A stretch of DNA of 64,000 nucleotides from Cryomorphaceae bacterium (lineage in GTDB: Bacteria; Bacteroidota; Bacteroidia; Flavobacteriales_D; Sanyastnellaceae). The stretch's first letter is position 1; each line of letters begins with the position of its first letter. The notes beneath the pieces are model-generated. The model was given only the letters and a program-made list of their open reading frames with translations, was not told the origin of the DNA and did not search any database. The position numbers and the translations under genes are program-made. Shown here piece by piece: positions 50,320-51,348 of this stretch. The DNA lies in NCBI GenBank assembly GCA_016124575.1, contig WGNM01000023.1:62001-126000 (forward strand), given 5' to 3'.

Positions 50320-51348
50320 ATGTCGAAGACTATCCTTATGATGGCCTCACTTTTCGTGTGCCTCTCGTCTTACGGTCAATACGGAGACCTTGGAACAGAC
50401 GTCCAACCAGACCCCTCTGAACACACCGCGCCGCTTATTTATTACGGTGAAGTTTTCGACTTCAGCGGTGGGTATCAAGTAGGTGATACAGCGATGAACT
50501 TTACCATTTATGATAAAGCAGGAGAGCGAATCAATTTGTACGAAGAATTGGCCGGTGATAAACCCGTGGTGATGGTTAGTGGAAGTGTAAGTTGCAATCG
50601 CTTTAGGGATGTTTTCGAGAACAACGCTGTAGGCCCGTATTTGGAAGTTCAAAACTACATTTCGGAAAACCGAGACGATTTCAACTGGATTTTTGTCTAT
50701 GGTGTTGAGGCTCACCCAACAGATGGCAATTGTCCGAGCAATTGTCCGCCAACAATCACAACCGACACTACAGTGCTTCAACATCCCGACTACAACTATC
50801 GTTTATGGGCCTTGCAAGGATGGCTTGATTCACCAGAACACGAGTTTGATTATCCGATGTACGCTGACAATCCTGATAATTCGGTTTACAACACCTTTTT
50901 TCAAAAAGCATTTGGCATTCTCGTGTTTAACTGTGATGGCACTGTTGCCATGCAGGGCGATTGGGCACTGAATTTCATCCCAGAAAACACAGATGCGCTG
51001 GCTGAATTCAAAGAAAACTATTCCATGTGTTCTATTGATTGGCCACCTGCCCCGCCATACTTAGGAGAGGCAGAGAGTGTCGATGACCAAGAAGACACCG
51101 TTGGGGTGCAAGAATTAGACGCTACACAAATTTCGATTTATCCAAATCCGTCAAATGGCATGTGTGCTATTGAAGCAGATGCCAATGCAACGATTGAAAT
51201 TCGCGGTATTAACGGACAGCTCATAGACACACTGCCAGCAGGAAGTGCAAAAAGAATGTTCAACACAAGCAACTTAGCGAACGGTATTTATTTCGCTGTG
51301 AGCAATCTAGGAAATACGGCCACCCAAAAATTGGTAGTCTTACACTAG
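50320..51348 (+). CDS. Secreted thioredoxin-fold protein, iodothyronine-deiodinase-like, with T9SS type A domain
   Basis: This protein has 342 residues. A signal peptide (1-19) leads to a thioredoxin-like domain (about 50-230) with GDTAMNFTIYDKAGERINLYEEL. Next comes VVMVSGSVSCNRFRDVF, where Cys92 occupies the place of the catalytic selenocysteine of iodothyronine deiodinases (GSCTUPPFR). FVYGVEAHPTDG near 127-136 matches the deiodinase EAHPSDGW segment. A second cysteine pair (CPSNC, 138-142) lies close by. The last 75 residues (SIYPNPSNGMCAI, IEIRGINGQLIDT) are a T9SS type A sorting domain. True substrates are unknown. It may be a peroxiredoxin-like or dehalogenating enzyme. Confidence 0.85.
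   Translation: MSKTILMMASLFVCLSSYGQYGDLGTDVQPDPSEHTAPLIYYGEVFDFSGGYQVGDTAMNFTIYDKAGERINLYEELAGDKPVVMVSGSVSCNRFRDVFENNAVGPYLEVQNYISENRDDFNWIFVYGVEAHPTDGNCPSNCPPTITTDTTVLQHPDYNYRLWALQGWLDSPEHEFDYPMYADNPDNSVYNTFFQKAFGILVFNCDGTVAMQGDWALNFIPENTDALAEFKENYSMCSIDWPPAPPYLGEAESVDDQEDTVGVQELDATQISIYPNPSNGMCAIEADANATIEIRGINGQLIDTLPAGSAKRMFNTSNLANGIYFAVSNLGNTATQKLVVLH

Follow-up and report, generated by a model that had tools for sequence, protein, structure and literature searches.

A divergent cysteine-containing member of the deiodinase superfamily with predicted type IX export in a Cryomorphaceae bacterium

The window, by which we mean the whole stretch of 64,000 nucleotides analysed here, carries on its forward strand (50320-51348) an open reading frame that runs uninterrupted from ATG to TAG and encodes a deiodinase-like protein of 342 amino acids with predicted type IX export. 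We consider it highly probable that this protein both belongs to the deiodinase superfamily and is exported. As to its function, the reading that we prefer, with a probability of roughly 0.55 for the mechanism as a whole, is that of an exported cysteine reductase that uses a deiodinase catalytic core on a substrate other than a thyronine. The question addressed is the role of the deiodinase fold where thyroid hormones are absent.

Results and discussion

Gene and relatives

Residues 1-20 (50320-50379) form a probable signal peptide, as judged by eye, and Q20 is near-invariant across 37 full-length relatives. They are followed by a T4_deiodinase-like thioredoxin-fold domain (residues 42-198 by Pfam, 50443-50913) and, at the C-terminus, by a sorting domain of the type IX system (residues 273-340, 51136-51339). 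The gene is single-copy, and the 36 other matches in the genome are to the part of the query that holds the sorting tail. Scans for promoters and terminators yielded values close to those of shuffled sequences.

Relatives were sought in genomes that share the family, order or phylum of the source, and also in named genomes, where they came from Flavobacteriales MAGs, Aureispira, Chitinophagales and Planctomycetota. The first scan matched 25 of 150 at E<=1e-3, the second 76 of 399 at E<=1e-4 (42 below 1e-30) and the third 23 of 395 (4 below 1e-30). All three totals include weak matches, and only those below E 1e-30 were called deiodinase-like. The weaker matches whose translations were read mostly resemble ordinary redoxins. 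One exception, L069 (G537; E 6e-7), is deiodinase-like and short, has GSITCP and YVREAHP, and shows no evident signal peptide or loop-D stretch. The named-genome scan gave 169 stretches, of which the best 80 were kept. Two profiles were built, A1 from 26 rows of the protein's own branch and A2 from a wider set of 59 rows; the full-length set A3 was restricted to complete ORFs and comprised 36 of the best 80 loci plus the window. No relative was found in the viral contigs that were scanned, and a phage origin was rejected.

Assignment to the deiodinase superfamily

The preliminary description of this DNA had proposed a profile search for T4_deiodinase as a check. The whole protein indeed matched PF00837 (24.4 bits, E 2.1e-5), though under the 27-bit gathering score, and residues 1-247 alone gave 25.3 bits, still below that cut-off; superfamily relatives score 31 to 114 bits against the same model. 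This was the sole catalytic Pfam match at E<=10. In NCBIfam, the 'deiodinase family protein' model NF038285 matched with an E of 6.9e-12 and 45.5 bits, far under its cut-off of 250. The AhpC/TSA, Redoxin and Thioredoxin families (PF00578, PF08534 and PF00085 in Pfam) gave no match at E<=10 in either collection. The preliminary description had named firm placement among redoxins or AhpC/TSA proteins, with no deiodinase match, as the outcome that would speak against it. As no redoxin family matched at E<=10, its own test fails to overturn it.

In a PDB search with the single sequence, mouse Dio3 already appeared, weakly (E 0.096). The A1 profile placed mouse Dio3 (1.3e-7) and Dio2 (4.6e-7) at the top with the next entry at 0.22, and the A2 profile returned Dio3 at 2.2e-24 and Dio2 at 2e-23, followed by a redoxin at 4.6e-7.

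The deiodinase-like thioredoxin fold claimed earlier was borne out by an AlphaFold2 model of residues 20-252 (pLDDT 89.1, pTM 0.88), which matches the catalytic cores of Dio3 and Dio2 best. Foldseek ranked Dio3 (3.3e-9) and Dio2 (1.6e-8) ahead of the next entry (1.3e-6), and VIA-align did the same, with a Z of 15.4 for Dio3 (3.1 Å, 166 residues aligned), 15.2 for Dio2 (3.2 Å, 164 aligned) and 13.9 for the next. Identity to Dio2/Dio3 in the structural alignment is about 20-21%. In both programs AhpE, other peroxiredoxins and ResA/TlpA redoxins were the next-best folds. As these redoxins come close behind, the fold alone would not decide the family.

A tree of 68 rows, made by a quick method and with long branches flagged for L088, L075, L069 and L068, separated six redoxins from the superfamily, animal enzymes included, at an SH-aLRT of 99. 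The window-type proteins and their relatives with TSP3 repeats formed one branch (support 99) on a long stem of 1.44, and the animal enzymes adjoined a Planctomycetota group (support 88-92). This placement makes the window protein a divergent superfamily member and no close counterpart of the animal enzymes.

We therefore rejected the explanation that the protein is an ordinary AhpC/TSA or Redoxin member with deiodinase motifs arisen by chance. It shares the thioredoxin superfamily with such proteins, and AhpC-TSA was matched weakly by 2 of the 37 full-length relatives, but the window protein itself has no redoxin-type match at E<=10, and the profile searches, the fold and the tree alike point to deiodinases; we regard this explanation as extremely improbable. 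Judged by its sequence, the protein represents a divergent branch of the deiodinase superfamily and falls outside the curated T4_deiodinase family.

Catalytic site and substrate site

The stretch GSVSCNRFR (residues 88-96) aligns with the deiodinase active site as had been claimed, with Ser89, Ser91 and Cys92 at Dio positions. The active-site GSVSC (residues 88-92) lies at 50581-50595, and Ser89/Ser91 correspond to Dio3 Ser167/Thr169. In Dio2, Ser127, Thr129, Tyr157, Glu160, His162 and His182 have been proposed to form a proton relay (PMC11592359). The alignment gives the corresponding residues of the window protein as Ser89, Ser91, Tyr127, Glu130, His132 and His155. Among them, Y127-x-x-E130-A-H132 (50698-50715) is equivalent to the Dio3 relay residues Tyr197, Glu200 and His202 (PMC11592359), and His155 (50782-50784), a position that varies within the branch, is equivalent to Dio3 His219. 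Because the pattern used in the named-genome scan demanded Y-x-x-EAH, rows from that scan have Tyr, Glu and His by construction. Of the 59 A2 rows, 24 were chosen without the pattern (the window, 20 from the scan of 150 and 3 from the scan of 395); all of these keep Tyr and His, and 23 keep Glu, with Asp instead in L068.

The preliminary description had further equated EAHPTDG (residues 130-136) with the deiodinase motif EAHPSDGW. The match holds up to the Gly, but does not reach the final Trp, as the next residues are NCPSNC with Cys138 and Cys142.

It had also placed Cys92 where the animal enzymes have selenocysteine, and this stands: the codon at 50593-50595 is TGC, and the catalytic residue is Cys in all 59 A2 rows and in each of the best 80 of the 169 named-genome loci. 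No selA match was found in the source genome (4 of 14 control genomes had one), and no tRNA-Sec there scored over the gathering score; weak tRNA-Sec matches also occurred in all 14 control genomes. On these grounds we rejected a selenoprotein. A Dio3 with Cys in place of Sec retains some activity, about 1000-fold lower (PMC11592359). Cys-based catalysis by the window protein appears probable.

Among the residues of deiodinases, Phe258 and Trp207 lie near the substrate, and Dio3 Arg275 or Dio2 Lys241 is the proposed carboxylate clamp (PMC11592359). In the alignment, all of these proposed thyronine-binding residues are lost from the window protein. The Phe258 position is A197, and the clamp position is W215 (50962-50964). 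The Trp207 position adjoins a loop gap and falls on S140 by column or on N137 directly after G136, with no Trp either way. With the first Planctomycetota group set aside, 43/43 A2 rows (18+7+14+4) have Trp at the clamp position; of the 16 rows in that group, 14 have Arg and two are gapped. As the residues of the thyronine site are not kept, thyronine deiodination as such is unlikely, and from its sequence thyroid hormone is an unlikely substrate of the window protein.

A related possibility is an extracellular reductive dehalogenase, in which Cys92 would abstract I+ or Br+ from marine halogenated phenols or tyrosines, by analogy with Sec acting on thyroxine. Marine environments are rich in iodinated and brominated phenolics, which counts for it, as do the preserved Dio core with its proton relay and the fact that Cys forms of Dio still deiodinate (Dio3, PMC11592359; DIO1 U126C, PMC9141512). 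However, the 1000-fold slowing of deiodination by Cys and the absence of the Trp207, Phe258 and Arg275/Lys241 equivalents argue against it, and no halogen-metabolism gene was recognised beside the window gene when translations of its neighbours were read by eye. We consider this dehalogenase unlikely.

Cysteines specific to the branch

The CPSNC pair that had been noted just after EAHPTDG is confirmed as C138-P-S-N-C142 (50731-50745), in the loop equivalent to Dio loop-D by alignment. Together with Cys205 (50932-50934), Cys138 and Cys142 occur in 25/25 A2 rows of the branch uniting window-type and TSP3 proteins, and in 0/34 others. By alignment column C-x3-C is present in 18/18 window-type rows, and a regular expression counted it in 17/18; the miss was taken to be L013, where an earlier EAH occurs. 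The Cys138/Cys142 loop belongs to the parts modelled with the lowest confidence (pLDDT blocks of 80 and 59).

Both regenerating cysteines of Dio3, proximal Cys168 and distal Cys239, are absent from the window protein, which has V90 and F176 there; Dio2 also lacks the proximal one. In DIO1 the proximal Cys is required for regeneration by glutathione and dispensable for the deiodination step (PMC9141512). The sequence suggests that Cys138/Cys142 may regenerate Cys92. A bolder version, in which this loop dithiol replaces the missing proximal and distal Cys and lets the enzyme turn over outside the cell, clearing marine organic matter of halogens or oxidants, is speculative, and we would give it little weight.

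The presence of several conserved Cys besides Cys92 would also suit a secreted thiol-disulfide protein that reduces or isomerises extracellular proteins, or a surface scaffold with no catalytic role, as would the ResA/TlpA-like folds next in the structure ranking and the TSP3 repeats of relatives, which are typical of surface proteins. However, a thiol-disulfide protein fits poorly with an active site that has no CxxC, and the relay residues that are kept would be unneeded by a scaffold. Either role is improbable in our estimate.

Export and gene context

The C-terminal domain matches Por_Secre_tail PF18962 with 45.1 bits against a cut-off of 27, and the NCBIfam T9SS tail model with 34.3 bits against 23. 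The source genome encodes SprA, at 2452 bits against a cut-off of 200, and PorU, at 1240 bits against 420. The earlier claim of a type IX sorting domain thus stands, and the location outside the cell that went with it is, from sequence, probable. The sorting tail is found in 28 of the 37 full-length Bacteroidota proteins and TSP3 repeats in 9; from these counts the nine tail-less proteins would be the nine TSP3 proteins. L022, a TSP3 protein outside the set of 37, carries both TSP3 repeats and a sorting tail. The TSP3 sister proteins (L024-L031, L111-L120), in which a deiodinase-like domain precedes many bacterial TSP3 repeats, make up a single group at genus level, in which the gene has a neighbourhood of its own. 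Elsewhere in the order, two genomes from a different family carry adjacent pairs of deiodinase-like genes (L032/L035 and L033/L036).

By eye, the translations of the neighbours of the window gene are uvrC-like, a 522-aa ORF upstream, thiL-like and suf-like. This gene order is common to the window, L090 and L101, and in other genera the gene is placed elsewhere; comparison of the loci found no partner gene recurring across the window's branch. The gene order thus identifies no functional partner.

The source genome also encodes a second T9SS-tailed thioredoxin-fold protein (L088 1378-2256, C2:140299) with CPPC and with AhpC-TSA/Redoxin matches. Its role as a reducing partner stays a guess, because the sole evidence for it is shared export. 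In the scan of 399, weak matches similar to L088 also occurred in genomes without a deiodinase-like gene.

AhpD-like extensions in other phyla

Of 39 non-Bacteroidota loci drawn from the best 80 of the 169 named-genome stretches, almost all of them from Planctomycetota, 7 carry a CNYCMGH-type motif on a C-terminal extension of the protein; another 7 encode the motif downstream within the locus. In the seven fusions (L142 4158-6830, L150, L160, L161, L129, L149 and L169), from Planctomycetota and one genome labelled Myxococcota, the deiodinase-like domain lies ahead of an AhpD/CMD-like extension of ~400 aa with CNYCMGH or CFYCMGH; in those that were scanned, EF-hands precede it. Matches of the extension to CMD/AhpD-like models are weak (TIGR01926 at 7.8e-5 for L142, PF02627 at 2.9e-4 for L129), and by itself the extension of L142 matched no CMD model in Pfam. 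The fusion belongs to other phyla, not to the source genome or its branch. It hints that bacterial deiodinase-like domains can work with an AhpD-like dithiol partner, and such a partnership leans towards peroxide-type chemistry.

Proposed mechanism

As an exported cysteine reductase, the protein would pass the inner membrane through Sec and then the outer membrane through T9SS. Once there, its Cys92 thiolate would take an electrophilic atom from an extracellular substrate. The preliminary description had suggested activity on halogenated aromatics or peroxides. The oxygen of a peroxide-type oxidant would be a likelier target than the halogen of an aromatic, although we put forward a peroxide-type rather than a halogenated substrate only tentatively. 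The relay would protonate the leaving product. The Cys138/Cys142 pair, in a loop that would lie beside the active site, would resolve the sulfenyl intermediate, with an external thiol donor completing the cycle. Such a cycle would need an extracellular reductant, and none was found. The lack of the peroxiredoxin motif PxxxTxxC and of a CxxC at Cys92 also counts against this scheme.

A protein in which the relay is kept and the thyronine site lost separates the chemistry from the substrate, and a soluble, exported, Cys-only member should express easily. Should it prove to dehalogenate, it would count as a secreted enzyme for halogen removal; should it reduce peroxides, it would tie deiodinases to peroxiredoxin-like ancestry.

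Comparison with known systems

Our literature search found no paper combining 'deiodinase' and 'type IX secretion', and nothing relevant in titles and abstracts on Planctomycetes or on iodotyrosine and marine dehalogenation. Bacterial deiodinase-like proteins are listed in reviews of 2022 (PMC9312934) and 2026 (PMC13188914), the latter stating that the functions of the prokaryotic selenoproteins of this group, deiodinase-like ones included, remain largely unknown. As the family has been in print since 2005, the novelty lies in an exported branch within it: the Flavobacteriales branch with its own conserved Cys set seems undescribed.

The report of 2005 described Cys and Sec deiodinase-like proteins of Sargasso Sea bacteria and suggested a redox role (PMC1088965). 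These resemble the window protein in being bacterial, marine and, in part, of the Cys form, but the part of that report at hand mentions neither type IX export nor the Cys138/142/205 set. The NF038285 proteins of Planctomycetota belong to the same superfamily and share Y-x-x-EAHP(T)DG and the Cys, but differ in having EF-hands, GPF after the Cys, the Trp and Arg that the window protein has lost, and sometimes an AhpD-like domain.

PxxxTxxC is the peroxiredoxin motif, and CxxC the redoxin-type motif. On inspection of the sequence neither is present at Cys92, which together with the missing family match sets the window protein apart from AhpE and other peroxiredoxins and from ResA/TlpA redoxins. 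The closest likeness is to Dio2 and Dio3 (PF00837; PDB 9h48, 4tr3), with which it shares the thioredoxin fold, the Dio layout, the catalytic position and the Ser/Thr-Tyr-Glu-His relay. However, the animal enzymes use Sec and are anchored in the membrane, whereas the window protein has Cys and is predicted to be exported by the type IX system.
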